From: Chamaelirium japonicum
Lineage: Eukaryota > Streptophyta > Magnoliopsida > Liliales > Melanthiaceae
DNA: 64,000 bases
Direction of reading: 5' to 3'
Assembly (NCBI GenBank): GCA_947650365.1
Contig: OX393553.1
Span: 43,039,513-43,103,512, forward strand
Part shown: piece after piece, positions 2,282-58,014 of the stretch
Numbering within the stretch: position 1 is the stretch's first letter
How the letters are laid out: each line of letters begins with the position of its first letter
The notes under the pieces: model-generated
The model's input: only the letters and a program-made list of their open reading frames with translations
Told to the model about the DNA's origin: nothing
Databases searched by the model: none
Position numbers and translations under genes: made by a program

Positions 2282-2850
2282 TATATATATATATATATAT
2301 ATATATAACACATAAGTTGATCCTATATATCCCATTAGCAATTAATTAGTTCCTCTCTTTCTCTCTTTTTTTTTATGTGTATGTGTCTGCCCTACCACAT
2401 ATTTATAAGTTGTTGGTCAACAGGAAAGATGAGAAAAAGTTGGACACAACCCCTGTTCATGGGAGTCTCCTGCAACTAGAACTAATGGAACCCAGGGTGA
2501 TCCCTATGAAATCACTTAATTAATATTCTCAATGGAGGGGGGGTCGGTTGGCTGAAGAGGGTGGTTGGTTGGTTGGTTGGTTGGTTTCCGTATCGTCTTG
2601 GCAACTCCAATTTTTATCCGGTTTTTATAATTAAAAAAACTTCACCTTTTTCCTGGTAGAGCGCACTTCATTCCATTCGAGAGAGACAGGCAGTTCCGAG
2701 GAGCATAGGAACTCAAAAGGGTGGAAAGTAACGCGACTAGGGACATCCTGACGTGGCAATGGATCACTGCCGCCCATCCCGACTGGCGATTCGCGGGCCA
2801 GAATAAAAAAAAAAGGAGGGGGTGGGGGCGGGGAGAGTGGGCCTCTCCGG
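2282..2850. other. Intergenic, nothing recognised
   Basis: A short TA tract (2283-2307) is followed by mostly unique AT-rich sequence with a GGTT repeat near 2561-2585. I see no coding pattern or RNA gene. Confidence 0.4.
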
Positions 2851-3500
2851 TAGGGCTGCAAGTGGGGTGGATTTGATAGGTTGGGGTCAACCCAAGCCCA
2901 ATCCTAATAATAATATCCACAATTCTAACCCAATCCAACCTAACCTTCAACCCCATATGCCCAGTCCAAATCTAACCCAAGTAAAAATTTTTATACTCAG
3001 ATTGGACTTGAGTTAGCCCAATTTGGTAGGATGGATCGGATTGTGTAAGTTCGGGTATACATATTATTTAGAATTTTACTCTTTAAAAAATCAAAATGTA
3101 AAAAGAACTTATACTTGTTAACACTAACATACAACTTTTTTTTGCATTTCTATTCATTCAATTTACTAGATCGTTAGATAATATATTTATTTGATGAACA
3201 AGAAGCAAATAAATAATATGGGACTGGGTGAAACGGATGATTGTGACTATGACCCCTCAACAAATTAGTACTCGGGATGGTTGTGATTGTTACTTATATA
3301 TCATAGACTTATAGATATACATGGATATTTGGGTTCAGGGTTGTCGACCCCTCGACCCGAGCCCGATCCAAATTCAACTCAGGGTTGTATTTTTTCAACT
3401 CTAACCCAACCCAATCTTCAAATGCATCAACACAAACACACCCAAAATTCGGATTGGGCTCAGGTTTGGTCGAGTCCAACCCACCCAGGTTGCATCCCTA
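2851..3500. mobile_element. hAT-like non-autonomous element (TAGGGCTGCAA family)
   Basis: It starts TAGGGCTGCAA and ends TTGCATCCCTA, imperfect inverted ends. The interior is full of alternating GGGTTGGG and CCCAACCC motifs. The flanking 8-mers CTCTCCGG and TCCCTCGG match at 5 of 8 positions, so any target duplication is decayed. A related copy lies at 30986-31486 and a partial one at 20.69-21.22 kb. Confidence 0.55.
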
Positions 3501-4016
3501 TCCCTCGGCCTAGCTCGTCCATTCAAAGCCACTGGTTTTAAGGGACTTGGACGAGTCTGACCCGAACCCGACCCGTCCAACCGAAACAATGGATAAGCAT
3601 AGATAAAGCTGGTTAAAAACTTGAACATATTTGGACAAAAAAAAAAAATCAATCCGATTTCAATTTGGACGAGTAGAGTGACATACATACTTGTAGGGCT
3701 GTTGTTGCTGATCCATCACCACAGTCATTTCAGAATGTGATGAAGTTTTAAGAGAAATAGAAAGAGCGAGAGTATGTGTAGTGTTAGCTGATTTTAATTT
3801 TTTATAGTGGTGGTTATTGTTGGTTAATAAAATTAATTTTTTTTAAGAGAGAAAATATTTTTATTTCTTATGATCAAGTTAAACTCGTCCAATCCGACCA
3901 ACCCGTCCATTGTTTTGATAAATTGGGTACTCCAGACAGCTCGACATGGGCAAGCAGGAGTTAGACTATTCTCGGTTGCACGGGTAAAACGGGTTGAGAT
4001 GTGTGTAGATCAGGTT

Positions 4017-10500: not shown

Positions 10501-12312
10501 TTGATTCACTATGATGGATTAGTAAGTGATAGATGAGTAAAGAGCTGGAATCAAACCTTGACTTCAGATTTCTTCACCGTCTTTATCATGAAACGGTCAT
10601 CATGGGTCATGTAGAAGAAGCTCCCACTCTTTCCAGGGGAAGACAACTCTCTCAAAGCATCATTTCCGCAGATCGCCAGCATATAATCCGCCGCATCTAC
10701 CGAAAACAACTTCCTCAGATGTCTGGATGCCACACCCAAGTAAATCATCACAAATTAAAATGACGAAGACATAAGCATTCAGCAACGTCATCACTAGAAG
10801 AGAAATTCAAACCTCAAAATCCAATTAGGAATTGAAAGTTCGCAATAATAGCAGAGTAAAACCATATGAATATAGAATCGATCGAGGAAAGGAATACCTG
10901 AAGACCATGGGGCAGTAGTCCTTCCATCTGAACTCGGCCGACGGGTGCGGGGGAGTGACCTTGGATCCCTCAGGGGGGAACCTCGTCCAGAACTTCTCTC
11001 TTGGGTCGAAATCCCCAGGTCTGAGATCCCTCATCTGCATCGAAGCAGGCTTCCCCACAGAGTAGCTGAAAGGCAAGATTATGTTATGAAACAGCTCGAA
11101 ATCCCTCAGATCAAATAGAGCAAACACCTGATGGGCATTTGGGTAGGATCGGAATGCAAACCTAATGCCCAATTGCAGATTAAGCATCAGATCGTAGTTC
11201 TTGTGACCCTTTGATATCATCTGCCCGGGCTTCTTCACCTCGCCGGTATTGAAGCAACAAGGGGTCCGACGCCGCTGCAAAGCTTCCGCCGACTGAAGGA
11301 AGGATGTGCTGTCCCTGTGAAGCATCGAGGCCTCGAGAGTGTCGATGATGTCGCAGGTGATGTCCCCGGCCTCCCCGTCGGATTCCCATATGCAGATCCG
11401 GGGGAAGTTCTTCTCCACGGTGCTCCCCCTCCCAATAGCGCCGTCCACCGAGGAGCGTTTCCTCGTGGTCAGCGGGAGCTGCAGCAGGTTGTCGTCCCGG
11501 GAGAAGGGGGCCCTCCAGCCGGCGGCGATGTCTTTCCGGGCGGCGGAGGCGGTTGCGGGGAACAAGGTGCCGTTGAGCTGGTGCTGGCTCTTGGCGTCCT
11601 TGCTCCAGCTGCTGACGTAGCAGGTCCCGTCGGGCCAGGTGAAGACGCCGCTGCCCTTGGGCGCGCCGTTCTCCCAGAGCCCGTCGTAGCGGTTACCGTT
11701 GGTCCAGATGAGAACCCCTCGGCCGGAGATGACCCCGCCGCGCCACTCGCCGATGTACTGGTTCCCGTTGCGCCAGACGTAGCGGCCGTGGCCCTCCTGG
11801 AGGTTGCGGCGCCAGGTGCCCTCGTAAAAGTCCCCGTTGGCGTAGGACTTGCAGCCGTAGCCGTGCTTCCGGTCGGCGCTCCAGGAGCCGCGGTAGGTGT
11901 CGCCGTCGGGCCCGGTGAAGGTGCCGAACCCCTCCATCCGGCCGGAGCGGAACTCCCCCTCGAAGGTGGCGCCGGAGGGCCACGAGAACTTCCCCTTCCC
12001 GGCCGCCTTCCCCCGCCGCCACTCCCCCTCGTACATGCACCCGTCCGTCCACAGGTACTTCCCCGTCCCGTGGGGCGCGTTCCCGGCGAATCCCCCCCTG
12101 TACAGATCCCCATTCGGGAGCGCCCTCTCCACCGTCGCCGGCGCCCCATCTCCCCCCTCGGCTCCGCCGGTCGCCGGGACCACCCGCCGGTTTCCGGCCC
12201 CTTGAGATCTGCTCCTAGGGTGGGGAAGCGGGCGGGCTACCGCTGCCATCTCCTTCTCCTCCGACTCCTCTCCTCCGCCTCGATTCTCGCCATCCACCGC
12301 CATCCGCGTCAT
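7535..12312 (-). CDS. PIP5K: Phosphatidylinositol-4-phosphate 5-kinase, MORN type (eight exons)
   Basis: Phosphorylates PI4P to PI(4,5)P2 at the plasma membrane. The exons I derive are 12312-11162, 11065-10898, 10722-10557, 10033-9923, 9807-9614, 9525-9395, 9300-9198 and 7823-7535. All junctions are GT..AG, phases agree, and the joined frame is about 770 residues, normal for plant subfamily B. Eight MORN repeats of 23 residues cover about 71-250, each opening like YEGEW. The kinase domain follows, with [11 protein letters not shown], the loop GKSGSFFY, lysine in [12 protein letters not shown], the catalytic [22 protein letters not shown] and the activation segment [17 protein letters not shown]. 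It ends in a C-terminal block like YSRRFRDFI. It most resembles the Arabidopsis PIP5K4/5/6 group. Met4 is an alternative start. No broken residue is seen, so the gene is probably functional. Confidence 0.93.
7940..9000. repeat. Diverged tandem duplication in PIP5K intron 7
   Basis: The last intron (9197-7824) is by far the largest and holds two diverged copies of one ~550-bp block. Matched pieces include ATGATGCAGCACTCA (7989) with ATGATGCAGCATTCA (8557), and CCAAAGGCATCGAGGC (8378) with CCAAAGGCATCGACGC (8878). No coding is seen in either copy. Confidence 0.6.
10324..10347. repeat. Poly-G run in a PIP5K intron
   Basis: A T run leads into about 24 G on the plus strand (a C run in the transcript), within the intron between 10556 and 10034. 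It could be an assembly-sensitive homopolymer. Confidence 0.8.
11066..11161 (-). other. Short in-frame intron of the PIP5K gene
   Basis: These 96 bases have no stop codon and keep the frame, so an ORF finder reads straight through them. They begin GT, end CCTTTCAG, and encode residues that the family lacks between LQLGI and YSVGKPAS. Splicing gives LQLGISYSVGK where relatives have LQLGIRYSVGK. I therefore treat the stretch as an intron. Retention would add 32 residues inside the kinase domain. Confidence 0.75.
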
Positions 12313-12640
12313 CCTATCGCCTCTCTCGCCCTAATCTCTACCCTGCATTTTCTCCTGGACGGCTCACTCACTTCCCGCCCTCTCGCTTTCCCCTCTCCTC
12401 TCTCTTCTTTGACAGCAATTTGCCTTGTAGAAGAGGGAGAGAGAGAGAATCCACAGGACCGGAGAGAGAGAGAGAGAGAGAGATGAGAGAGAGAAAGAGA
12501 GAGACAAGAGAGAGAGAGCGGGGTGGAGTTTGTGTTGCGTTGGCGGTAGGCCAGCCTTTTAGCTTTGGTGCGCTTTGTTGCTCCCAACCTATGGAACGTT
12601 GAAATGGGGATGGGGATGGCGAGGAAGAGAGAGGGGGTAA
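12313..12640 (-). promoter_or_regulatory. PIP5K 5' leader and proximal promoter, CT-rich
   Basis: Read on the gene strand, the stretch just upstream of the start codon holds long CT blocks (complement of GA at about 12430-12521). CT-rich leaders are common in plant housekeeping genes. I cannot point to a convincing TATA box, and the transcription start is not determined. Confidence 0.45.
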
Positions 12641-20023: not shown

Positions 20024-21460
20024 TATATTATATACGGTAAATGTTATACTACATAATTTCAATCGGAACGGTCCCTTTTTGATCACAATCGTCCCTCTCC
20101 AATCGCAACAATACCTTTTGATTCACTACAAGACAAAAAAAAAATCAGAGTTACTATAGCCTGTACAATAACTCCGAAAAAAATTTGTCTTGTAGTGAAG
20201 TTTTTTTTACGGTACATGAAGCTGTTTGTTCTTGTTGTGATGTTTATTCTCGCGAATTGAGTGCGATTCATCGCTAAAGGGGAAGAGATCGACCATGGGG
20301 TGGGTCTGCTGGTGGTTCTAAATGCGATTCTTTGTTAGAGGGGCTGCTAGTTTGGACAGAGTACGATTAATCAGCCGGTGATGCTTTTCGGTCAGGACGG
20401 AGTGCGATTCACCTATCGGTGGTGCAGACAAACCTCCCTATGGCCCTTCTCCACCAATCTAGCGCCCTAGTCTCCGCCCGGCCATCTCCTCCCCTTCATT
20501 GTGCGGTCAAGTTGAGTGCGATTCACTTCGTCCTGGAGACTGCCAACCTGGATGGAGTGCGATTCTACGGTAGATGGTGCTTGCCGGCGGGAACAAAGTG
20601 TGATTCACCTTAGATTTATCTTCCTCTTAATGGACTGGAAAGTTATTGGAAACAACAATTGATAGGCCATGTGACACAGCTCGGGCTGAGCTCGGGCACT
20701 CAAAGAGCCGGGCTAGGGCTCATGTTAGCCCAAGTTGGTGGGACGGGTCAGATTGTGTGGGTTTGGGTGTACTTTTTTCAATTATTATTTAAAATTTTGA
20801 TATTTGAAGATCTAAAACTAAAAAGAACTTATACTTGTTGACACTACAATACCACTTTCCTGCATTTCTATCCATGCATTTTACTAGCTCATCAGATAAT
20901 GTCTTTATTTGATAAGCAAAAAAGCAAATAAATAATATAAGACTAAGTGAAATGGATGATTGTGATTATGACCCTTAACATATGAGTATTTGGGATGGTT
21001 GTGATTGTTACATGTACATCACAGACTCACTGACATAAATAAATACTCGGGTGTGGGTTGGGTCGGGTTGCCTAACCCCTCAACTTGAGCCTGATCCAAA
21101 TTCAACTCGAGTTGTTTTTTTCAACCCTAACCCAACCCAATCTTCAAATTCATCAAACCCAAAACCGCCAAAAGCTTGGGTTGGGTCGGGTCTAACCCGC
21201 CCAAGTTGCAGCTCTATTTGGGCTGAATTTAATGACCGTCATAATATAGGAAAAAAGGACAATTGTGTAGTGTTATCGGGGGGTTCCCTGAGACAGAACA
21301 ACCCAGTCCTCGACTCATGACAATTCCCATATTGTCATGACCTGCATGGACTCCAATATCAAGCATGCATACCCAAGATTGGTGAGCATGCCGAGAGTAG
21401 TGAGCAGTGGGTTGTCAATACCCAGTTTGCAAGATCAGTCGTAACCCGTGCTCCTACGAG
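20024..21460. repeat. Duplicated segment S1
   Basis: The 20024-20700 part matches 29393-30040, and the 20700-21440 part matches about 31000-31700. Shared blocks include the CACTA microelement, a run of GTGCGATTCAC motifs, the hAT-like 3' end, and CAATATCAAGCATGCATACCC. The two copies lie on either side of the LTR retrotransposon. S1 lacks the 30.04-31.0 kb material present in S2. No gene is supported in it. Confidence 0.75.
20124..20197. mobile_element. 74-bp CACTA-like microelement
   Basis: It has ends CACTACAAGACAAA and TTTGTCTTGTAGTG with about 46 bases between. The ends are a classic CACTA-type inverted repeat. The flanks TT and AA do not give a clear 3-bp duplication. The matching copy in S2 is at 29495-29567. 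Confidence 0.6.
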
Positions 21461-21613
21461 TGCAAAACTTTTGGAAGAGTTTAGAGAGTTGTCTTCCACC
21501 TTACAAGAGTGATGCACTCTGATAGTCGAGCGATACTTCTCTTTCACAAAATGATTTTCTTATCTTCCTTGCTAGGACGGGTGTTCCAGTGTCGATCTTT
21601 AGGCACTGGATGG

Positions 21614-22199
21614 TGTGGGTGCAAAAATTGTACCGGACCAGATCAGAGCAGCATGGGCCCGCGCAACGGCCCAAGTGAGTAAGCCCGCCCGGGTGCATGG
21701 GCCCACTCTACGAGGCTCGCAGATCAAGCCCTCCCCCTTATTGGGCCCGAACAACGGCCCAATAAGGGCCCAGCAAAGAGGCCCAGAACCAGTGCCACAT
21801 CATCATCGCCACGTCACCACTGCCATATCGGGCACGTGCCTACGCTACAAAAGGACCCCCAAGGCATCCAGGAAGAGGGTTGGCCATTCAATCAGAGGAG
21901 GAGGATCCCAGAGCAAGTGCTAGAGCTCAATTCTCCCCTTCTTATTCTCTTCTAGTTGCTCCGTGCAACCCGACTGTACGAAGCTTCTCTTGGCCTGTCA
22001 AGAGAACGCTCACCCCTTATTGACTTAAATTATAGTGAAGATCAGGTGGCACCTCTCGCCCGGAGACGTAGGTCGTAAGGCCGAACTCCGTCACCAATCC
22101 TTGTGTCATCATTGCTTACTCTCTCTATCTATTCTCCCATCTCTCTAACTCTACAAACAATCCAATTCAATCAAGGCTGTGGGGTGGGATTCTCGATCA
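21614..22199 (+). repeat. 5' LTR
   Basis: It starts TGTGGGTGCAAAAATTG and ends TTCTCGATCA. A possible promoter motif is CTACAAAAGG near 21844. It differs from the 3' LTR at three sites that I found (GGGCCCGAAC vs GGGCTCGAAC, CAAAGAGG vs CAAGGAGG, GGAAGAGGG vs GGAAGGGGG). Confidence 0.93.
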
Positions 22200-22230
22200 A
22201 GGCGGCTCGGAAATTTCCCCCCACAATCTT

Positions 22231-22248
22231 TGGCGCCGTCTGTGGGAT
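22231..22248 (+). other. Putative primer-binding site
   Basis: TGGCGCCGTC followed by TGTGGGAT is the motif found after the 5' LTR of many plant Gypsy-type elements; its first bases match the complement of a tRNA-Asp 3' end. It lies 31 bases inside the LTR end, further than the usual few bases, which is odd. Confidence 0.6.
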
Positions 22249-22365
22249 ATCGATAGAGGTCTTACCCACACCTCTACCGACTCCTATTCAGCTTGTGGTG
22301 ACGAGCCACAAATCCTCCTCCAAATCAACCTCAAAGCTTTCACCACGCCAACATCAACACGCTCA

Positions 22366-22812
22366 ATGGTGAAGGCCAGCACCAACCCACCAAAGGTGGG
22401 TGCTGATCGGACAATCGACGTGCTAATCGAAGAAGAACAAGAAGTCTCGGTTGCAACCAATCGAAGAAATGTTTATAAGCGACTGGGGCCACAAGGAATT
22501 CATCCGGGAAGCCACAGCAATCGGCAGGACCCACCATTCCCGAGGCAACAGTCTGGCAAAGAGCACGCCACCCAAGGGGACAACGATCTAACTACATACC
22601 AAATTTCGGCTGCTGATTTACAGCTGTTGAACCTTCTCAAAAGGAACGCATCCCTCGAGCAAGAGAGGGATTCCCTAAAGAAGGTAGCTGAAAGAGCGGG
22701 GGTTGTGGCCCACAACTCTCCAACTGCTGATGAAGACCAACCAAAGACCTTCGATTCCGCCCATTCAAGTCGGAAGCTCGAAGGTAAGTCGGCTACGCCA
22801 TCTCGAGGCTAA
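22366..22812 (+). CDS. Gag-like or leader ORF of the LTR element
   Basis: A 148-codon frame directly after the leader. Residues about 85-110 (LQLLNLLKR...LEQERDSLKKVAERA) look like a short coiled coil. No zinc knuckle or capsid motif is recognisable. Its last ~25 codons run into the first unit of the 107-bp tandem array, so the C-terminus is made by repeat sequence. It may be the start of a gag whose remainder was replaced by repeats. Confidence 0.4.
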   Translation: MVKASTNPPKVGADRTIDVLIEEEQEVSVATNRRNVYKRLGPQGIHPGSHSNRQDPPFPRQQSGKEHATQGDNDLTTYQISAADLQLLNLLKRNASLEQERDSLKKVAERAGVVAHNSPTADEDQPKTFDSAHSSRKLEGKSATPSRG

Positions 22813-23380
22813 CGACCGATAAAAAGGCTCCTGGCAACCCAGGTCAACCAAAGACCTTCGATTCCGCCCGTTCAAGTCGGAAGCTCGAAGGCAATTCGGC
22901 TACGCCCTCTCGAGGCTAAAGTCCGATAAAAAGGCTCCTGGCAACCCAGGTCAACCAAAGACCTTCGATTCCGCCCATTCAAGTCGGAAGCTCGAAGGCA
23001 ATTCGGCTATGCCCTCTCGAGGCTAAAGTCCGATAAAAAGGCTCTCGGCAACCTGGGTCAACCAAAGACCTTCGATTCCGCCCATTCAAGGCGGAAGCTC
23101 GAAGGCAACTCGGCTACGCCCTCTCGAGGGTAAAGTCCGATAAAAAGGCTCCTGGCAACCCAGGTCAACCGAAGACCTTCGATTCCGCCCATTCAAGTCG
23201 AAAGCTCGAAGGCAATTCAGCTACGCCCTCTCGAGGCTAAAGTCCGATAAAAAGCTCTTGGTAACCCAGGTCAACCAAAGACCTTCGATTCCACCTATTC
23301 AAGTCGGAAGCTCGAAGGCAATTTGGCTACGCCCTTTCACGGCGAAAGTCGGATAAAAATGCTCCTGACAATCCAGGTCA
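22741..23380. repeat. 107-bp tandem array
   Basis: CCAAAGACCTTCGATTCC recurs at 22741, 22848, 22955, 23062, 23169 and 23275, a period of 107 (once 106). The last unit decays toward 23380. Each unit contains GGAAGCTCGAAGG and CTGGCAACCCAGGTC. Confidence 0.92.
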
Positions 23381-23469
23381 AGCTAAACTATCAACTATAC
23401 TTATCCGAGGCGACGAGAATAAGTCCAAGGCAGACATCGCCGCTTTGACATGCACCAAGTTCAAGGAGA

Positions 23470-24650
23470 CATCCTTGACACTCGAAGACAAAGTCCGAAG
23501 TGACCAATGCCTCGGCAATCTATAAGCCCAGGGCCCTGCCCTTGGCACTCGAAGACAAAGTCCGAGGTAACCAATGCCTCGGCACTCTACAAGCCCAAGG
23601 CCCAGCCCTTGGCACTCGAAGACAAAGTTCGAGGTGACCAATGCCTCGGCACTCTACAAGCCCAAGGCCCAGCCCTTGACACTCGAACACAAAGTCCGAG
23701 GTTACCAATGCCTCGGCAATCTATAAGCCCAAGGCCCTGCCCTTGGCACACGAAGACAAAGTCCGAGGTGTCCAATGCCTCGGCACTCTACAAGCCCAAG
23801 GCCCAGCCCTTGGCACTCGAACGCAAAGTCCGAGGTAACCAATGCCTCGATAATCTATAAGCCCAAGGCCCTGCCCTTGGCACTCGAAGACAAAGTCCGA
23901 GGTAACCAATGCCTCGGCACTCTACAAGCCCAAGGCCCAGCCCTTGGCACTCGAAGACAAAGTCCGAGGTGACCAATGCCTCGGCACTCTACAAGCCCAA
24001 GGCCCAGCCCTTGGCACTCGAACACAAAGTCCGAGGTGACCAATGCCTCGGCAATCTATAAGCCCAGGGCCCTGCCCTTGGCACTCGAAGACAAAGTCCG
24101 AGGTAACCAATGCCTTGGCACTCTACAAGCCCAAGGCCCAGCCCTTGGCACTCGAAGACAAAGTCCGAGGTGACCAATGCCTCGGCACTCTACAAGCCCA
24201 AGGCCCAGCCCTTGGCACTCGAACACAAAGTCCGAGGTGACCAATGCCTCGGTAATCTATAAGCCCAAGGCCCTGCCCTTGGCACTCGAAGACAAAGTCC
24301 GAGGTGACCAATGCCTCGGCACTCTACAAGCCCAAGGCCCAGCCCTTGGCACTCGAACACAAAGTCCGAGGTGACCAATGCCTCGGCAATCTATAAGCCC
24401 AAGGCCCCGCCCTTGGTACTCGAAGACAAATGCCAAGGCGACCAATGCCTCGGCACTCTACAAGCCCAAGGCCCAGCCCTTGGCACTCAAAGACAAAGTC
24501 CGAGGTGACCAATGCCTCGGCACTCTACAAGCCCAAGACCCAGCCCTTGGCACTCGAAGACAAAGTTCGAGGTGACCAATGCCTTAACACTCTACAAGCC
24601 CAAGGCCCAGCCCTTGGCATTCGAAGACAAAGTCCGAGACGTCGTCGCCG
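23470..24650. repeat. 67-bp tandem array with higher-order order
   Basis: About 17 units of 67 bp. Each has a self-complementary core CCCAAGGCCCAGCCCTTGG and ACAAAGTCCGAGGTGACC. Units are of type A (GGCAATCTATAAG...CCCTGCC), B (GGCACTCTACAAG...GAAGACAAAG) or B' (as B but GAACACAAAG). The order A-B-B' recurs around 23514, 23849 and 24050, giving a 201-bp higher-order unit. Short frames repeated every 67 bases are not genes. Confidence 0.92.
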
Positions 24651-25089
24651 ACGTATTGGCATTCGATCAAAAGTCCAAGCTTAGTCTTGTCACTCAGGTC
24701 CAAGCATGAGATTATCACTGGCCATCACCTTTTTTCGACGACTAACGGTTCCAAACCGGTCAGGGGGTGGTTGGTCTGACTCTGTCAGTGCGTGTCTCCA
24801 CACTGGTGCAGTCGACGGTGGATAACACGGGATAAAATGGTGCTTCCTTGATCCTGGCCAAGTCAACACCCTCACGTGACCGTAGTACCTGGTGAATACA
24901 GTAACCAGGTGCGGTAATACATTGGGTGAAGACCGGCTGGCCATCATGCGGCGTCATCCTAGATTATCTCTAAGAAACCTCCTCGAATATAGCATTGTCC
25001 CTCGCCGACATCCCCGTGCACCAGCGTTTTACCGAAAAAGTGTCGGTTTCAAATGGGGCTGAAATTCGAAAAATATACTATTTTCAATA

Positions 25090-25975
25090 CCGACACTTTT
25101 TGGCCTCTTCTAGCGGCCCCAATAATGGGGTGTCGGCATCAACAAGCAACCCCCCCTCGGTTTCGCACAAAAACCGGGTGGGGAGGGGGTGACGACACAC
25201 CATCAGCACACCCCTCGGTTTCGTCAGAAAACCGAGAGGGGGGGTGTGTCGGTATTAACAAGCAGTCCACCCCTCGGTTTCGCACAAAAACCAAGTGGGA
25301 AGGGGGTGACGGCACACCATCAATAGTACACCCCTCGGTTTCGTCAGAAAACCGAGAGGGGGTATGTGTCGGCATCAACAAGCAACCCCCCCTTGGTTTC
25401 GCACAAAAACCGAGTGGGGAGGGGGTGACGGCACACCATCAGCACACCCCTCGGTTTCATCAGAAAACCGAGAGGGGGTGTGTGTTGGCATCAACAAGCA
25501 ACCCTCCCTCGATTTCGCACAAAAACCGAGTGGGGAGGGGGTGACGGCACATCAGCAGCACACCCCTCGATTTCGTCAGAAAACCGAGAGGGGGTGTGTG
25601 TCGGCATCAGCAAGTAGCCCCCCCTCGGTTTCGCACAAAAATCGAGTGGGGAGGGGGTGACGGCACATCAGCAGCACACCCCTCGGTTTCGTCAGAAAAC
25701 CGAGAGGGGGTGGGTGTCGGCATCAACAAGCAGCCCCCCCTCGGTTTCGCACAAAAAACGAGTGGGGAGGGGGTGTCGGCACTAACAACAGTCCACCTCT
25801 CGGTTTCATAAAAAAAAAAAAAAAAAAAAAAACCAAGAGGGTCAGGGTGTTCGACATCAACAATAGTCCACCTCTCGGTTTCGTCAGAAAACCGAGAGGG
25901 TGGGTGTTCGGCATCAACAACAGCCCACCCCTCGGTTTCGTCAGAAAACCGAGAGGGGGGGTGCTCGGTGTCATC
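25090..25975. repeat. 116-bp tandem array of hairpin units
   Basis: Units are marked by CAACAAGCAACCCCCCCTCG at 25140, then about 25257, 25377, 25493, 25609 and 25724, giving spacings of 115-120. Each unit has TCGGTTTCG...AAACCGAG pairs that fold back. An A run at about 25809-25832 interrupts the later units. A separate palindrome (AAAAGTGTCGG and CCGACACTTTT) precedes the array at about 25035-25102. Confidence 0.9.
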
Positions 25976-26298
25976 CACACACAATGATTATTTAAAGACG
26001 AAGAGCTATCTTCCATTGGGTCGGTTGGATAGCATCTCATCCAAACCTATTGATTTGCTTGTACAAACTTCACAAAAAAAAAAAAATCCCCTTTCTCATC
26101 AGGGGTGAGCACGCGGTAACCGTTGCGTCATCACTGGGGCCCGACTGCAGTCCCTAGTGAACACAGTAACTAGGTGCAATTGGGTGTCAGAGAGAACGGA
26201 TGAGTTACCTCGTGCCAAGACATCTTTAAGACGCTAGCCTAAAACCCGGTCGGCACGCTCTTAAGAGTCATCTCTCTATAAAGGTGAATGCCGGAAAA

Positions 26299-26790
26299 GT
26301 TACTCGTCAAGGCGAACAATGTTTCACGTCCACTTTGACTGTTTTTTCGGTGCCTATACAACGACACCTTATACGCATTCATCCGACATGCGTATGAAAA
26401 GTTATGACTATCGGAAGGTTTCAAGGTCTTTTTCTTCGAAGACATGCATTGGAAATATTACACGCAAAGGTGCCCGACGCTTTACGTCCACCTTAACCAG
26501 TTTTTCAGTGCCGACGCAACAACGCCTTATACGCATTGATCTGACGCGTGTATAAAAAGTTATAACAGTCGGAAGTTTTCGAGGCATTTTTCTCCGAAGG
26601 CAGGCATCCGTAGGGTCACACGTCAAGATGTGCGATGTTTCACGTCCACTTTGATCGGTTTTTCGGCTCCGACACAACGACACCTCATACGCGTTGATCC
26701 GACGTGTGTATGAAAAGTTATGACTGTCTGAAGACTTCGAGACTCTTATCTCCAAAGTAAGGCATCAGGAGAGTTACACGTCAATGCATG
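26299..26790. repeat. 158-bp tandem array
   Basis: Units begin at 26299, 26457, 26615 and 26773, an exact 158-base spacing, with diverged sequence (for example TTTCACGTCCACTTTGA and TTTACGTCCACCTTAAC). Three full units and the start of a fourth are present. Confidence 0.88.
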
Positions 26791-27219
26791 CCGGGTTTCA
26801 CCCTTCGGTGTCAGCACAACGCCGTCGTCCCGGACGCCCGTATGCATCCCTCCACCTGCACGTGATCCTCCGCATGGCAGCAACGAACCCGGGGGGGATA
26901 TCCGACTTCTCTTCAATCGGCATGTCCTCGGCGACACCGGCGAGGGGGACATGTCCTCGACGCAAAGGCTCTTTTGTGCAGACACTGCCCACGGCTCTCT
27001 CTCTGACTCGCACCCGGCTCCTTCTCCCACTGGCGCATGGGTCCGCCCACCGCTTTTGTGCGACTCGACCTTCCTTTCGGCTCGCATGGATCTGCAGCAA
27101 TCCAGCTCTACAGCACTCGTGCATGCATGTATCCACAACAAAACCCAAAAAAAAAAAAAGAAAGAGAGTGCTGTGCGCCGCCGTCACCGCCTGCGATCAA
27201 ATCCCAGATCTGAGAAGAG

Positions 27220-28070
27220 ATGGCTCTGCTGGTGGAGAAGATGACCTCCGGCCGGGAGTACAAGGTGAAGGACATGTCTCAGGCCGACTTCGGCCGCCTC
27301 GAGATCGAGCTCGCCGAGGTCGAGATGTCGGGCCTCATGTCGTGCCGCGCCAAGTACGGCCCCTCGCAGCCCTTCAAGGGGGCCCGGATCACCGGCTCCC
27401 TCCACATGACCATCCAGACAGGTCCTCGACTGGGGCGCCGGTGGCAGGCCGGATCTCATCATCGACGACGGGGGAGACGCCACCCTCCTCATCCACGAGG
27501 GGGTCAAGGCCGAGGAGGAGTACGAGAAGACGGGCAAGGTGCCGGACCCGGCGTCCACGGACAACGTCGAGTTCCAGCTGGTGCTCGGCCTCATCCGGGA
27601 CAGCCTCAAGGTGGACCCCAAGAGGTACCACAAGATGAAGGAGCGCCTCGTCAGTGTCTCCGAGGAGACCACCACCGGCGTCAAGCGCCTCTACCAGATG
27701 CAGGCCAGTGGCACCCTACTCTTCCCCGCCATCAACGTCAACGACTCCGTCACGAAGAGCAAGTTTGATAATCTGTATGGATGCCGCCACTCCCTCCCCG
27801 ATGGCCTAATGAGGGCCACGGATGTGATGATTGCCGGCAAGGTCGCCGTGGTCTGCGGCTACGGAGATGTGGGCAAGGGCTGTGCCGCTGCCCTGAAGCA
27901 AGCCGGGGCCCGTGTGATTGTGACGGAGATCGATCCTATCTGCGCCCTTCAGGCCCTGATGGAGGGCATCCCCGTCCTCACCTTGGAGGATGGTGTGGCC
28001 AAGGCGGACATCTCAATTCGTGACCACCACAGGAAACAAGGACATTATCATGGTGGGGCACATAAGGAAG
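27220..28070 (+). pseudogene. SAHH: Captured S-adenosyl-L-homocysteine hydrolase fragment
   Basis: SAHH (EC 3.13.2.1) splits S-adenosylhomocysteine into adenosine and homocysteine. The fragment starts at the true initiator ([22 protein letters not shown]) and runs to TGNKDIIM, about the first 290 of roughly 485 residues. It is broken three ways. About 57 codons are missing after HMTIQT, where the frame changes (27421-27425). About 4 extra bases shift the frame again before FVTTTGNKD (about 28012-28016). The C-terminal third is absent. The NAD-binding motif GYGDVGKG and the [11 protein letters not shown] segment remain. It lies inside the LTR element in the same orientation and cannot make active enzyme. 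Similarity to known plant SAHH is high, so the capture looks recent. Confidence 0.93.
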
Positions 28071-28202
28071 ACAGAAGAGGCCAAAGAGGAAAGAGAGAGA
28101 GAGAAAGGAAAGAGAGAGCGGGGTGGGGTACACTGCACTCACGCGAATGAATGCCAAAGAGGAAAGAGAGAGAAAAAGGAAAAAAAAGAAAAAGCTGTTC
28201 TT

Positions 28203-28530
28203 TCACCAAAAGGGTCTCGGTACCCTCTCGGTATGCTCTCGGTATGCTCTCGATACCCTCTCGGTATGCTCTCGGTACCCACTCGGTATGCACTCGGTAC
28301 CCTCTCGGTATCCACCCGGTCGGAAAACGCACTGTGTTTTCGGAAACACCCCCTTGCAAAACCGAGACTTTTTGGTTTGCACCAAAAGGGTCTCGGTACC
28401 CACCCGGTATGCTCTCGGTACCCACTCGGTATGCACTCGGTACCCTCTCGGTATCCACTCGGTCGAAAAACGCACTGTGTTTTCGGAAGCACCCCCTCGC
28501 AAAACCGAGACTTTTTGGCTCGCGCCAAAA
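28203..28530. repeat. Tandem pair of ~180-bp and ~145-bp units with CTCGGTA(T/C) subrepeats
   Basis: Two units start AAAAGGGTCTCGGTACCC at 28203 and 28385. Each holds short CTCGGTATG/CTCGGTACC subrepeats, the same GAAAACGCACTGTGTTTTCGG or GAAAAACGC... palindrome, and AAAACCGAGACTTTTTGG. The last motif relates them to the CCTCGGTTT units at 25.1-26.0 kb. Confidence 0.85.
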
Positions 28531-28676
28531 AGGGTCTCGGCATCGGCGGAAGAAGGCTCTGCTAATACGAACCGCGGCATCGACAACCCTCGCCAACCGC
28601 GCCAGGATCCTAAAGCGTTTGCACCTTGGAATCCCAGCCGACCCAGGGGGTCCTGACCCGACTGGGAGGGGGTAAC

Positions 28677-29262
28677 TGTGGGTGCAAAAATTGTACCGGA
28701 CCAGATCAGAGCAGCATGGGCCCGCGCAACGGCCCAAGTGAGTAAGCCCGCCCGGGTGCATGGGCCCACTCTACGAGGCTCGCAGATCAAGCCCTCCCCC
28801 TTATTGGGCTCGAACAACGGCCCAATAAGGGCCCAGCAAGGAGGCCCAGAACCAGTGCCACATCATCATCGCCACGTCACCACTGCCATATCGGGCACGT
28901 GCCTACGCTACAAAAGGACCCCCAAGGCATCCAGGAAGGGGGTTGGCCATTCAATCAGAGGAGGAGGATCCCAGAGCAAGTGCTAGAGCTCAATTCTCCC
29001 CTTCTTATTCTCTTCTAGTTGCTCCGTGCAACCCGACTGTACGAAGCTTCTCTTGGCCTGTCAAGAGAACGCTCACCCCTTATTGACTTAAATTATAGTG
29101 AAGATCAGGTGGCACCTCTCGCCCGGAGACGTAGGTCGTAAGGCCGAACTCCGTCACCAATCCTTGTGTCATCATTGCTTACTCTCTCTATCTATTCTCC
29201 CATCTCTCTAACTCTACAAACAATCCAATTCAATCAAGGCTGTGGGGTGGGATTCTCGATCA
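28677..29262 (+). repeat. 3' LTR
   Basis: It has the same length (586) and termini as the 5' LTR, with three substitutions seen. It is followed directly by the target duplication GATGG. Confidence 0.93.
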
Positions 29263-29494
29263 GATGGGTCCGAGCAAGGAAGAACAATCTAAACTTAAAA
29301 CCCTTCTCTTGTTATCTTTTCAAAAAAAAAAAAAAAGTGGCAGTGAAAGTTCGTGCTTGGGGTCTCACGCTGTAGAGCGGAATTCGTGGCATGACATATT
29401 ATATACAATAAATGTTATCCTACAGAATCCCAATCACAACGGTCCCTCTTCGATCACAACCGTCCCTCTCCAATCACAACAATACCCTTCAATT

Positions 29495-29567
29495 CACTAC
29501 AAGATAAAAAAAATTTAGAGTTATTGTAGCATGTTAAGTAACTCCGAAAATTTTTTATCATGTAGTG
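29495..29567. mobile_element. CACTA-like microelement, S2 copy
   Basis: CACTACAAGATAAA at one end and TTATCATGTAGTG at the other. It occupies the same position in S2 as the copy at 20124-20197 in S1, so it was present before the duplication. Confidence 0.55.
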
Positions 29568-30375
29568 AAATTTTTTTTCACGATGAAGCTGTTTGTTCTT
29601 GCTATGACGCGGTTTATTCTCGATGACGGAGCGCGATTCACCGCTGAAGGGGAGGAGATCGGCCATGTGGTGGGTCCGCTGGTGGTTCTGAGTGCGATTC
29701 TTTGTTAGGGGGACTGCCGGCGTGGACAAAATATGAATAACCGGTCGGTGATGCTTTTCGACGGGGACAGAGTGCGATTCACCTGCCGGTGGTGCAGACA
29801 AACCTCCCCATGGCCCCTCTCCACCACTCCGGCGCCCTAGTCTGCACCCGACCATCTCCTCCCCTTCATTTTGAGGTCAAGTTGAGTGCGATTCACTTCG
29901 TCCGAGAGACTGCCGGCTTGGATGATGTGTGATTCTCCGGTAGCTGGTGCTTGCCGGCCGGGATAGAGTGCAATCCATCCTAGATTTATCTTTCTCTTGA
30001 TGGACCGGAAAGTTATTGGAAACAACAATTGATAGGCCTAGACCCAGTCTGGGCCCTTAAAGAACCGGGCTAGGGCGCGAAAGCCCGGGCTTATGTAGGA
30101 CCGGCCCGAGCCCGCCCGTTGACAGCGATACAGACACCCCGCCAGGTGGAAATCGCACTCAGCCGAACTGTACACTCTACCCACATCGGGGGATCCCGTA
30201 TTGCACTTTCTATGCACTATAGGACAAACAATTTTTAGTTTTTCTAGCTACGGTACCTCCGAATAAAATCGGTCTCATTACCGCATATAAACTGTGCACT
30301 ACTGGACAGTTGGCGCCCGAGGATGATATATCACAGGCTGCCTCATATTACTTGGTACCAAGATCCCCTAGACAT

Positions 30376-33976: not shown

Positions 33977-34369
33977 GGGTCAAGATCGGATGACCCGACA
34001 TTTTTTGACCCATATTTGACCCATCATCCTAATCGTTGGATTTGGGTCTCAAAATTTGCTGAGTTTTTGTGAGGATAATCAACATACCATAGATAACAAC
34101 TCTACAAAAAAATCAACACATTCTAAAACCTCTAGGCGCATCAAATGTGCTCTTCAAATCAACAGTTGCAATTGACGGTCGAAAAAACTTATAATATTTG
34201 ATGGCCCTAGAGGTTTTAGAGTCTACTCAAATTTTGAAGGTATGCTATCTAAGGTATATATGTTGATCATCGTCATAAAAAATCAGCAAATTCTGAGACT
34301 CGAATCCAACGATCAAGATGATGGGTCAAAGTATAGATAAAAAAATGATGGATTATCTAATCCTAACCC
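33977..34369. mobile_element. Foldback MITE, copy 3 (diverged)
   Basis: It starts GGGTCAAGATCGGATGACCC and ends near CTAATCCTAACCC. Inner arms match the copies at the left end of the window (for example GATAATCAACATACCATAGA) but carry many changes. Confidence 0.7.
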
Positions 34370-49134: not shown

Positions 49135-49359
49135 GCTGCACGTTCATCTACTTGCACATATACATGTGAAAACAGACTTTCATCTATACATTTATGTTTT
49201 TATATGCACATCCATTGTATATATTTATATGTCTAAAAAGTGAACATTTGTATCTGTTTGCATTGATTGTAGCTCCTTTATCAGTTTTAATCTGAGTGTA
49301 TATGTGCAACTGAAAAAACAAGTCAATCTCACTTAAACTAAACATGTCCTTAAGCAACA

Positions 49360-52300
49360 TTGAAAATACTATTCTGGAATTGCCGGGGATTATTACGACC
49401 GGCAGCAATTGGGCATATCAAATTGCTAGTAAAGAAGTTTGAGCCTCAAGTAGTTTTACTGGTGGAGAGTCATCTACGACTAGCTAAGTTAAGCCGAGTT
49501 AAGGCTGTATTTCGCGGTCAATATGAAGTGGCCTGCATTCCGTCTAATGGCCTGGCAGGCGGGATTGTTTGTATGTGGCGAGGGGATTTGGGTTTGGTTA
49601 CGGCACTTGATCGTCAGAAGCAGGTGTTGCATTTGGTGGTGACGGAAAATAATGCCAAGCCTATTGTTCTCTCTTCTATCTATGCTAGTACATCTGAACG
49701 GGAAAGGAGGGAGTTGTGGACTGAATTGACGGTGTTAAGTAGGATGTGTTACCCGTGGTGCCTGTTAGGGGACTATAACTGTGTGTTAACGCCAGAGGAT
49801 AAGAGAGGTGGTAGACCGTTTTGTTGGTCTCGAAGCACTAAAGATTTTTTGGAGATGGTCAATGACAGTGGACTACGAGATATACAGTTCTGTGGGGAGT
49901 CGTTTACTTGGTGCAACAACAGACAAGGAAGGGCTCGGATATGGGAGAGACTTGACAGGTGCTTTGTTAATGATCGATGGACGGCTGAGTTTGATGATAC
50001 TTCGGTTCAGCATCTCCCGCAGTGTGTGTCGGATCACTCACCGATTTTAGCTTCCACTATGGCGAATACAAGACCTAGAAGGGTTCCGTGGAGATTCCAT
50101 AACTTCTGGTTGTCTAGGGCAGATTGTCGGGAGGTGATTCTTCGCAAATGGATCAAAGGAGCTAGTTGTACTGCGAATATACCTTTTGTTCGAAGAGCTC
50201 TATCTGATTGGAATAGAACTAAGGTGGGTAATATTAATTCGCTGGTGGAATCGTTATGGAGCCAAATTGAAGTGATGGGAGAGAATCAAGCACAGGGAGA
50301 GGAATCGCAGGAGTGGATGAGAGGGCAGAGGCAGCTGGAGTGGGCCTTGGGGCAACAGGAGTCCCTTTGGGCTCAGAAATCTAGAGTGCAGTGGTTACGT
50401 GAGGGTGACCGGAATACAAGATTCTTCCAATCTTGTACTCGAGTGCGAAGGGAGCGGAATCGTATTCGATGCCTGCAGGTAGGGGGAGTGGAGATCTCGG
50501 AGCCTCAGAAGGTGAAACAAGTGTTGCTGGAGTTTTTCCAGAAGCGGTGGACACGAGCAGATGAGGTGCAGCTGCAATTTCTCGATGAGATGCCACGATG
50601 CGTGTCTCATGAGATGAATGAATTCCTTATTCGAGTTCCGGATAGAGGTGAAATCGAGAGGGTAGTGTTCGCTTCCCCGGCTAATAAATCTCCGGGACCT
50701 GATGGGTTTAATGGGGAGTTTTATAAAGAATATTGGGCTATCATTGGTGAGGATGTGATTAGGGAGATCCAGGGTTTTTTTCAATCGCATCGTATGCCGG
50801 TGGGATGGAATGAAACAGCTGTTGTACTTGTTCCGAAGAAGACGGGGCCAGGGTCACCAAGCGATTTCAGGCCGATAAGCCTCTGCAATGTACAATACAA
50901 ATTTATCTCGAAGATTATGTCCAATCGTCTCCGGCTACTGTTACCTTCTATTATTAGAGAGGAACAACATGCGTTTATTCCTGGGAGGCGAATCAGAGAT
51001 AATGTCATCCTCGCACAAGAGATACTGCATTCTATCCATCGGACTCCTCGGTGACGGGCAGCGATGGTGTTTAAAGCAGATTTAGATAAGGCATATGATA
51101 GGATTCAATGGGAGGCTTTGGAGGTAATTCTGTCCAGAATGGGGTTCCATCCGATCTGGATTTTGTGGGTTATGCAATGTGTGCAATCAACCTCAATCCG
51201 GATATTGATCAATAGGGAGGAGACAAGGGTTTTTAGACCTACCTGTGGTTTACGACAAGGGGATCCAATATCTCCGTATCTTTTCCTCCTAGTAGCCCAG
51301 GTGTTTCAATGGGAAATAGATAATAGTATAAGAGAGGGGGCGCTGGAGGGGTTTACTACCAAGAGGAACTCGCAGCCGATTGCCACTCTCGCTTTTGCTG
51401 ATGATTTCCTTTTCTTTGCCAGGGCGACAGAATTAGATGCTTGGGGGTTGCGTGAGGTATTCACCAAAGTCGCTTTGAGTACTGGTCTGAAGATTAATCC
51501 AGTTAAGTCTAGTATCAAATTCTCTCGGTGTGTGAGAGCTTCGGTTCGAAGGCGGGTGGAGCGGGCTTTGATGGTGAAGGAGGAGGGGGGACCTTGGGCC
51601 CACCTTGGAGTTCCTATTAATGGAGGTAGAGTCCCAAATGACTGCTTCAAGTTTGTGATAAGCCGAATGGAATCTCGACTTGCGGGTTGGAAGGCTCGAT
51701 TGTTATCGCAAGCGGGGCGTTTGGTATTGATTAAATCTGTTTTGGCAGCTACTCCGGTACATTTGTTGGGGGCAGGGGGTTTACTGGTTGGGGTGCTGAA
51801 TCAGATGGATCGGATTTGTCGAGAATTTTTGTGGGGCCATATTGATGGAAAGCGACACCTGCATCTGCTTTCGTGGGAGTTGATTACTAAGGTGCGAGAG
51901 ATGGGGGGGCTGCAGATCTCTTCTTTTCAAGAGCTACAGGTTCAACAAGATATAGCCAATATGAGGTACGTGTTGATGGAGGAGGGGGTGGGAGCTCGGT
52001 GGATTAGAACTAAATATACAGTGGATGTGGAGTGTTGGCAAAATTGGCAAGGTAGGCAGGCATCGGTGTGGTGGCGTCGAGCAATGAAGCGGCTACGACA
52101 GACGAATTGGAATCTGAGTAATTTGCGGCCCAAATATGTGAAAATGCTGGGAGAATTGAGGGGTGAGCAGGTATGTAATGCAGCTGTGGCGCCTACTTGG
52201 GATGGTGCTGGACTTTGGAGGTTGAGAGTTCCTCCGCGAGTCCACCTTTTTTTGTGGAAATTGTTGCGAGGGGCTCTGCCAACTGCAACTCTTTTGAGAC

Positions 52301-52704
52301 AGCGGATTAGGATGGGATATGGATGTTGCCCCTGGTGTAGCGACCCGGAGGAGGACATAGCACATATATTCTGGGATTGCAACAAGGCTGTAGAATTTTG
52401 GACATGTATGCAAATGGAGACGGGGATTAATTTCTACTCACAGCAATTACTTCACTCTACTGGCCGAAAGGTACGACTGCGAGAACCCCCTAAGCCTCAA
52501 GAGATGATAGCTGTTGCTATGTGGATTTTGTGGAAGGCAAGATGCGACAGAGTGTTTGGAAGGCCGGTTAAGCCTTGTCAAGTACTAATACGGCAGAGTA
52601 TAAACTCGCTTGAGTTGTTCCAAGAGCCATTCCCGTTAATTCAGAGGGGACTGATGGATCTTTCAAGCCAACGGAGGGAGGGGCGAGTGGGGCTTGGGTT
52701 TTAG
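49360..52704 (+). pseudogene. L1 ORF2: AP endonuclease, reverse transcriptase, zf-RVT; one in-frame stop
   Basis: The endonuclease domain opens with MKILFWNCRG and shows the catalytic glutamate in LLVESHL, the GDYN motif and SDHSPI, over residues about 1-230. The reverse transcriptase has SPGPDGFNGEF, FRPISLCNVQYKFISKI, KADLDKAYDRIQW, GLRQGDPISPYLF and the catalytic FADD (51393-51404; FADD instead of YADD is common in plant L1). The zinc-binding region has FLWKLLRGALPTATLL, CCPWC and HIFWDC. A single TGA at 51052-51054 splits the frame between SIHRTPR and RAAMVFKADLDKAYD. The two halves share one frame, and the stop looks like a CGA-to-TGA change. Confidence 0.93.
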
Positions 52705-54374: not shown

Positions 54375-55250
54375 ATTTTAATATTGCCTTCACTACCGAA
54401 CTCTCCTCTGTCAGAGTCCCCCGCCACCAAGCTCTATTGGGGTAAGCCTTTTAGGTTACCACCCTTGGCAACTCACCTACACTTTAGCGGCCCCGCTCGT
54501 TGAAAGACAAGGAGAGAGAAGACACATGAAGTGGGGTTCGACTCCTCTCCACTGATGCTCGTCTCCCCTCTATCGGTAACTGACGATTTGGGGAGTGACA
54601 TGTGGCGATTTGAAAAAGAACGGCCATGATCTATGGCTATGGGATGAACTCAAGGGGAGATGCCACCACCTCCGACCACCGCCCACCACCTGTCGCCTCC
54701 GGTTGGCCACCGTCCTTGCTGCTTCACCGCTAGTGACCACCCATGTCGACAGCTAGCAACCACAATGGCGGCGGGTAGCCAGTGATTTGCAAGGGTGATC
54801 CCCAACAGTACGTGGTGGTTGGCGACGGCCGGGTGTAGAGGTATCCCATCTTGGGATCATCCCATGATCATTGATCGTGGCCGTTTGTTTTCGGATCGCC
54901 ACATGTCACTCTCGAAATCATCACCGATAGGGGAGACAACCATCAGTGGAAAGGAATCGAACCCCATGAAGCATGATGCTAATTTTCTCTCCTCGTTATC
55001 AGTCCTATGTTATTCTTTGAAGACCAAGGCCTCATCTTCTAATGGGGTGTAGTACCTGAATAACACATTTGGACGCGTTTGTCCATGGGCCGGGCTCAAG
55101 CCTACCCCAAAACTTTTAGTCGAGCTCCGGCGAGAAATGGCCGGGACGAGCCCAACATAATCAGCCGGACCACTAGGCCGAATGATCCAACCGGACCACA
55201 AGAAAACCAGCCCCGCTGCCGGGGAGCGCAGAGATTCAGATTTCAGGTTC
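54375..55250. other. Unassigned sequence
   Basis: It has CCACC-rich phrases at 54660-54780 and no supported gene. Two blocks near 54535-54640 and 54840-54980 share inverted phrases (CGTTGGATCACTCCCC-type), which may be degenerate repeat arms. Not resolved. Confidence 0.3.
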
Positions 55251-57530: not shown

Positions 57531-57835
<305 letters not shown>

Positions 57836-57943
57836 ATATATATATATACATATACATATATATATATATACATATACATATATATATATACATATACATA
57901 TATACATATATATATACATATACATATACATATATATATATAC

Positions 57944-58014
<71 letters not shown>
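57836..58014. repeat. (TA)n array with TACATATA higher-order pattern
   Basis: The first 120 bases alternate TATATA and CATATACATATA blocks before pure TA resumes. It contains no coding sequence. Confidence 0.9.

Follow-up and report, generated by a model that had tools for sequence, protein, structure and literature searches.

Capture of host genes by long terminal repeat (LTR) retrotransposons, template switching between unrelated RNAs and cargo consisting of exons only have already been described, as far as the excerpts of the relevant papers go (PMC13317346, PMC3726574, PMC2774510, PMC4717578, PMC4608283). The present analysis concerns an LTR retrotransposon that occupies positions 21614-29262 of a 64,000-nucleotide stretch of Chamaelirium japonicum DNA (contig OX393553.1, positions 43,039,513 to 43,103,512; hereafter the window) and carries a piece of the host gene for S-adenosylhomocysteine hydrolase (SAHH). 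According to the available passages, Bs1 of maize is likewise an LTR element without full pol that holds spliced host-gene pieces, possibly from several genes (PMC13317346, PMC4717578). However, those passages present Bs1 as a single type of element that has three segments, whereas here the members differ in cargo at the same region, SAHH comes from two paralogues, and the cargo recombines. Maize LTR elements, Gypsy-type ones included, have also been found to contain gene pieces (Baucom et al. 2009); the excerpt counts 425 intact elements that hold parts of genes, representing at least 189 captures, in a data set of over 31,000, and none with pieces of more than one gene (PMC2774510). In the genome analysed here, 11 of 19 sampled elements bear recognisable pieces, and two genes each were found in locus L041 (with its close copies L042 and L043) and locus L047; this contrast is only rough because the screens differ. 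Terminal-repeat retrotransposons in miniature (TRIMs) with captured exons share with the present family the exon-only cargo, sometimes from several genes, and the 5-bp duplications, but the portion consulted gives their size as 1.2-1.4 kb, against 7.6 kb with large tandem repeats in the window element (PMC4717578).

With a probability of roughly 0.8, the window element belongs to a non-autonomous LTR family that has repeatedly taken up pieces of host genes between a block of 158-bp repeats and a purine-rich tract, SAHH having entered via spliced mRNA and the SAHH cargo having subsequently recombined. Two stretches of the window, 27214-27427 and 27424-28071, match plant SAHH (3ond; E = 2e-33 and 6e-111, respectively), and the piece matches the Pfam families AdoHcyase and AdoHcyase_NAD. 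The captured segment (27175-28075, plus strand), delimited by protein and host-mRNA comparison, lies in sense orientation, with the 5' untranslated region (UTR) starting at 27175, the natural ATG at 27220 and the end at about 28075. Aligned with the mRNA of host gene C8, it starts in the 5' UTR, reaches about codon 339 and lacks about 165 bases at 27424-27427, so that about 284 codons of SAHH sequence remain; an earlier note on this DNA had estimated about 290 in sense orientation with the natural start. The site of host intron 1 is spliced out at 27763/27764. A frame-shifting insertion is located near 28019, and reading from the natural ATG meets a stop after 182 codons, in agreement with that note's description of the fragment as internally deleted and frame-shifted. 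A piece with the same deletion was found in three other insertions (L017, L019, and L021), each with its own 5-bp duplication; the window piece is therefore not an assembly join, and the capture itself stands.

Two host SAHH genes were found, C8 (L030) and C134 (L031), each with a full 485-codon frame and two GT-AG introns (2355 and 87 bp in C8; 1101 and 80 bp in C134); the rest of the element is absent from the surroundings of both. A protein search of the genome for SAHH gave 38 matching places, and 13 units of this LTR family were read, the copy count being a lower bound from the protein search alone. All 13 SAHH-bearing units have the family LTR downstream. Group A (the window copy, L017, L019, and L021) matches C8, with a divergence of 3.4-5.1% from C8 mRNA and 12.7-14.2% from C134, while group B (L024, L026, L027, L028, and L029) matches the paralogue on C134 (2.1-3.8% from C134 mRNA and 11.2-12.1% from C8). 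Group C (L033-L036) is older than both and diverges from C8 mRNA by 15.7-17.9%. The window copy is a late, broken copy of group A and can make no SAHH enzyme. Each of the 13 units either lacks intron 1 or stops short of its site, as group C does at mRNA position 750; intron 2 is missing from all four units that reach its site. The absence of both host genes' introns from the captured pieces, a comparison that the earlier note had proposed, indicates spliced mRNA as the capture route. The SAHH pieces begin at mRNA positions 156 in group A, 122 in group B, and 145 in group C, close to the transcription start that the TATA box would predict. Locus L032 (C3), with SAHH pieces in opposite orientation, and weak hits at C9:4.9 Mb, C4:29.95 Mb, and C8:3.65 Mb were left out of the set, and two loci considered as host genes, C7:67.4 and C11:58.4, proved to be group B elements. 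A retrogene made by a long interspersed nuclear element (LINE) was ruled out, since the SAHH piece ends within coding sequence and travels with an LTR element.

Comparison among the copies showed that the SAHH cargo recombines and that cargo and LTR types have been reassorted. Positions distinguishing C8 from C134 served as diagnostic sites, and a break along the piece was tested against 20000 shuffles. In L028 and L029, the two longest group B copies, the sequence is C8-like at 10/136 and 10/134 sites, respectively, up to position 1415, and at 7/7 from 1418 in both, the C8-type stretch being the last ~55 bases; none of the 20000 shuffles matched the break in either copy. The same test gave no break in the long group A copies (6635/20000 shuffles for L017 and 7231/20000 for L021). 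A C134-type body joined to a C8-type end identifies the SAHH piece of L028 and L029 as a recombinant of both gene types. A change of host C134 after capture was rejected as an account of this end, for it would need 7/7 changes there against 10/136 elsewhere. The 3' ends of the long copies fall at mRNA positions 1476 (A) and 1475 (B). The window copy and L019 are 99.3% identical in SAHH and 87.6% in the LTRs, and the nearest LTRs to that of the window belong to elements with other cargo, namely CAF1-bearing L037 (97.3%), L005 and L006 (96.9%), and L038 (96.8%). For L024 and L026, the corresponding values are 99.0% and 89.9%. Such near-identical SAHH between divergent LTRs points to reassortment of cargo and LTR types among copies. 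A parallel exists in the retroviral transduction of oncogenes, where partly deleted src viruses recover c-src sequence: mRNA capture is followed by homologous exchange with RNA of the cellular gene. The present case differs in that it concerns a plant retrotransposon, a cargo of no known use, and an exchange between two paralogues.

Sister elements were chosen regardless of SAHH, 20 of them being taken from LTR hits, for which a first look gave 3387 candidates, and 3'-region hits (40 scored of 1357 candidates). One of these, L039 (C187), was dropped because another element interrupts it, leaving 19; its LTR is 98.5% like that of the window element and is followed by a Copia-type pol frame (by eye), but this candidate autonomous partner was rejected as a nested element. 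With L041-L043 counted once, gene pieces were recognised in 9/17 sisters. They comprise CAF1 in L037 and L051, ALOG in L038 (antisense), ribosomal protein S5 in L040, cytochrome P450 (antisense) plus HSP90 in L041, exostosin GT47 plus EF-hand in L047, PAPS/APS reductase in L048, F-box/KIB1-4 in L049 (antisense), and EF-hand in L054; CAF1 of L037 and HSP90 of L041 were identified by PDB search, not Pfam, and L042 and L043 are 99.6% identical to L041. Ribosomal S5 pieces occur in several versions, with 79-98% identity to the piece of L040; some have an uninterrupted frame of 202 codons over a region that other loci match only in separate, exon-wise hits. Every cargo piece has the tandem-repeat block on one side and the purine-rich tract on the other. 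None of the 19 sisters had SAHH among its recognised cargo, which answers in the negative the earlier question of whether all copies with this LTR carry it. The picture of a one-off, SAHH-specific capture likewise gives way to that of a family holding SAHH from two host genes plus many other genes.

The gene for APS reductase, found at 29 places in the genome, repeats the pattern: its host gene (L057) has two introns, and in the elements L048, L058, L059, and L060 the sequence is continuous across the sites of both. SAHH and APS reductase thus both present an intronless host segment inside LTRs, as in gene-transducing (Bs1-like) elements. At the APS-reductase 5' junction, 10 identical bases are found in the element (26739-26748), the host 5' UTR, and the chimera. 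Three of the five measured 3' junctions (SAHH short A, SAHH long A, and APS reductase) fall in the most purine-rich 3.5-4.7% of 30-base mRNA stretches, and the two others (group B short and group C) are not purine-rich (78% and 53% of stretches as rich or richer); purine enrichment at 3' junctions is suggestive only. Locus L058 (C19:2.83 Mb) is a miniature relative with APS reductase within ~10 bases of the LTR, in which the leader, repeats, and gag are missing.

The hallmarks of an LTR retrotransposon, namely paired LTRs, a primer-binding site, a polypurine tract (PPT), and a short target-site duplication, are all present in the window element. Its outer LTR copies, 21614-22199 and 28677-29262, are 586 bp long with three differences between them, and GATGG lies on both outer sides (21609-21613 and 29263-29267) as a perfect 5-bp duplication. 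These borders of the earlier note held, but the LTR length did not: the family LTR measures 612 bp, the extra ~26 bp, ending in CA, being present in 15/15 other LTR ends read with the PPT side upstream (L004/L037 counted once). The window 5' LTR is therefore 21614-22225 (586 bp plus 26 bp, as matched by L039 over 21614-22225), while comparison with other copies showed the 3' LTR (28677-29262) to be 26 bp shorter at its end than the family LTR; unequal LTRs are peculiar to the window copy, and the rest of the family conforms. The short 3' LTR together with the perfect duplication (29237-29267) suggests that the window copy integrated at an inner CA. Duplications of 5 bp, read by eye, were found in 8/8 elements with both flanks available (window, L019, L024, L036, L037, L038, L017/18, and L021/23). 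The LTR divergence K, computed over the 586-bp part, is 0.0051 for the young window element, 0.0086 for L019, 0.0103 for L024, 0.0315 for L021/23, 0.0407 for L036, and 0.0524 for L017/18. At the rice substitution rate of 1.3e-8 per site per year, these values would correspond to insertion ages of about 0.2 to 2 million years. Tandem arrays as a rule were ruled out, since the internal sequence seen after 3' LTRs is explained by an LTR 26 bp longer than assumed; the sole tandem pair is L026/L027 (C11:40.26-40.27 Mb), two SAHH-bearing units with one common LTR. Direct repeats at 20025-20668 and 29396-30038, 83% identical, flank the window element outside its duplication.

The element appears to belong to a large non-autonomous family, some members of which keep gag and none of which was seen with pol in a limited scan. 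No Pfam pol match was obtained in 11 scanned non-SAHH open reading frames (ORFs) of the window element, as the earlier note had reported, and a reverse transcriptase (RT) motif, in what is a weak test, was matched in 0/6 loci. An open gag frame of 419 codons, stop to stop, is present in SAHH-bearing L017, and gag was also matched in L021/L023 (pieces without stops), L038, L007, L061, and L062, the last two being used for gag only and two further loci, L063 and L064, not at all; the gag of these relatives matches Pfam Retrotrans_gag. The gag match is absent in the window element, L019, L024, and L037. TR-GAG elements, named in PMC4608283, resemble those family members that keep gag, in which the limited scan saw no pol. 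They differ from the window copy, which has lost gag. To our knowledge, gene capture is not part of the TR-GAG definition. By resemblance, the lineage may be Tat-like Ty3/Gypsy, a Pfam match being found only to Retrotrans_gag.

The proposed course of events is that RT would switch from element RNA to host mRNA inside the particle, copy along the mRNA towards its 5' end, and then switch back to element RNA; the captured SAHH cargo later recombined with another SAHH template, presumably by template switching, giving the C134/C8-type mosaics. Several observations weigh against this account. Three cargo pieces (ALOG, P450, and F-box) are antisense, which is unexpected from a simple minus-strand switch, and clear microhomology was seen at only one 5' junction. 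No gene match was found in 8/19 sisters (L044, L045, L046, L050, L052, L053, L055, and L056), for each of which only 1-4 open frames were scanned, and the sisters were sampled by LTR or 3'-region similarity and not at random. Moreover, L028 and L029 agree in both SAHH (99.1%) and LTR (99.3%). Antisense cargo would be easier to explain if genomic DNA had been captured, in the manner of Pack-MULEs, but nothing favours this for SAHH; the SAHH and APS-reductase pieces have no introns, and the elements have LTRs instead of terminal inverted repeats. An assembly artefact is at odds with the same SAHH piece in several insertions with different duplications, and either explanation is very improbable. 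For the mosaic, we lean slightly towards an earlier C8-type capture whose body was exchanged for C134 mRNA sequence, rather than recombination between elements. The competing account, to which we give somewhat less than even odds, is that another element captured C134 mRNA independently and later recombined with the RNA of a group A element inside a shared particle. It would yield the same mosaic and common 3' end, and the LTR/SAHH reassortment shows that elements recombine with each other; on the other hand, it needs one extra capture, and the near-coincidence of the 3' breakpoints of the long A and the long B copies, to one or two bases, is also what replacement in one ancestral capture predicts. 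A further, tentative extension is that of a gene-sampling family, in which the purine-rich tract and repeats would be a landing pad for jumps onto purine-rich packaged mRNA, and the cargo piece a homology arm for fresh paralogue mRNA, with cargo renewed and swapped between lineages. It draws on the three purine-rich 3' junctions, the 10-base APS-reductase identity, the group B mosaic, and the LTR-cargo reassortment, and is weakened by the other two junctions and the three antisense pieces.

Roles for the captured sequence itself find less favour. In L029, a 476-codon open frame (~2332-3760) joins SAHH residues 1-425 to a foreign, element-derived tail, and its product could be an interfering subunit if selection had kept the group B protein for a time. 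Of the changes on the element branch, few fall at second codon positions (12/3/15 over the three positions in L028 and 11/3/17 in L029), a weak hint in this direction. These counts are small and largely common to both copies, a stop interrupts the L028 frame after 117 codons, and no such clear pattern is seen in group A (6/3/11, 7/5/12, 11/13/17, and 9/11/21), where selection on the cargo was rejected for want of a clear signal, or in group C (33-39 first-position changes, no clear constraint pattern), so such selection seems improbable. Even more doubtful is an action on the host, proposed in the earlier note, by which element transcripts or small RNAs would lower SAHH and weaken transposon silencing. 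Of the 881 21-mers in the window piece, 413 recur unchanged in C8 SAHH mRNA, making cross-targeting possible, though unproven, and the consulted part of a rice and sorghum survey reports small RNAs mapping to some captured genes (PMC3726574). However, the window piece is sense and broken, group C has almost no 21-mers in common with either host gene (1-14 per copy), and the other captured genes have no methylation link. SAHH from two genes beside many other cargo genes does not indicate a special link to methylation or silencing; the methylation idea loses its special appeal with SAHH as one cargo among many, and the window copy gives no sign in its sequence of acting on SAHH or methylation.

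The remaining interior of the window element (plus strand) starts with a primer-binding region at 22226-22246, read from the sequence, which contains TTTGGCGCCG and which, judging by resemblance, may be of tRNA-Asp type. A leader open frame from the ORF list follows at 22366-22812; in the relatives L017 and L021/L023 it is succeeded by the gag frame, which the window copy lacks there. Repeat analysis revealed tandem repeats at 22738-23381 (107 bp x 6.0), 23473-24638 (67 bp x 17.4), 25127-25968 (116/58 bp and 57 bp), and 26298-26784 (158 bp x 3.1), the last forming the left shoulder of the cargo region. Sister cargo starts in or just past this 158-bp repeat, at 26589-26593 in L037/L038 and at 26739-26748 in APS-reductase copies. 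The segment between repeat and SAHH (26749-27174) is common to group A copies and L053, in which it is followed by sequence different from that of the window. The right shoulder is a purine-rich (GA) tract at 28080-28207, related to the tract adjoining cargo in sister elements; repeats of TCTCGGTACC type (28215-28540, repeat analysis) and the PPT before the 3' LTR (28663-28676, sequence reading) complete the interior. Elsewhere in the window, two long open frames at 49354-52701 (plus strand) have the look of LINE endonuclease/reverse transcriptase, and an open frame at 10828-12330 (minus strand) has MORN-like repeats and is perhaps a PIP5-kinase exon (both by eye). Fold-back-like stretches of 390-455 bp at 1856-2307, 57533-57986, 54532-54966, and 33977-34369 match their own reverse complement at 70-92%.

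The open-licence literature searched yielded no description of this family or of a retrotransposon with SAHH cargo, and none of a cargo region so varied or of cargo being renewed from paralogues. LTR elements are known to capture genes; what is unusual in this variant is the wealth of captures within one family, together with recombination of the cargo. For annotation, SAHH-like or APS-reductase-like frames in this genome, such as the long L029 frame, may be transposon cargo. Capture by LTR elements is usually regarded as a matter of rare, single accidents, whereas here more than half of a small sample carries pieces of host mRNA. The many independent junctions within one family would make template-switching capture testable by counting switch sites and by assessing the need for homology and cargo-directed capture.

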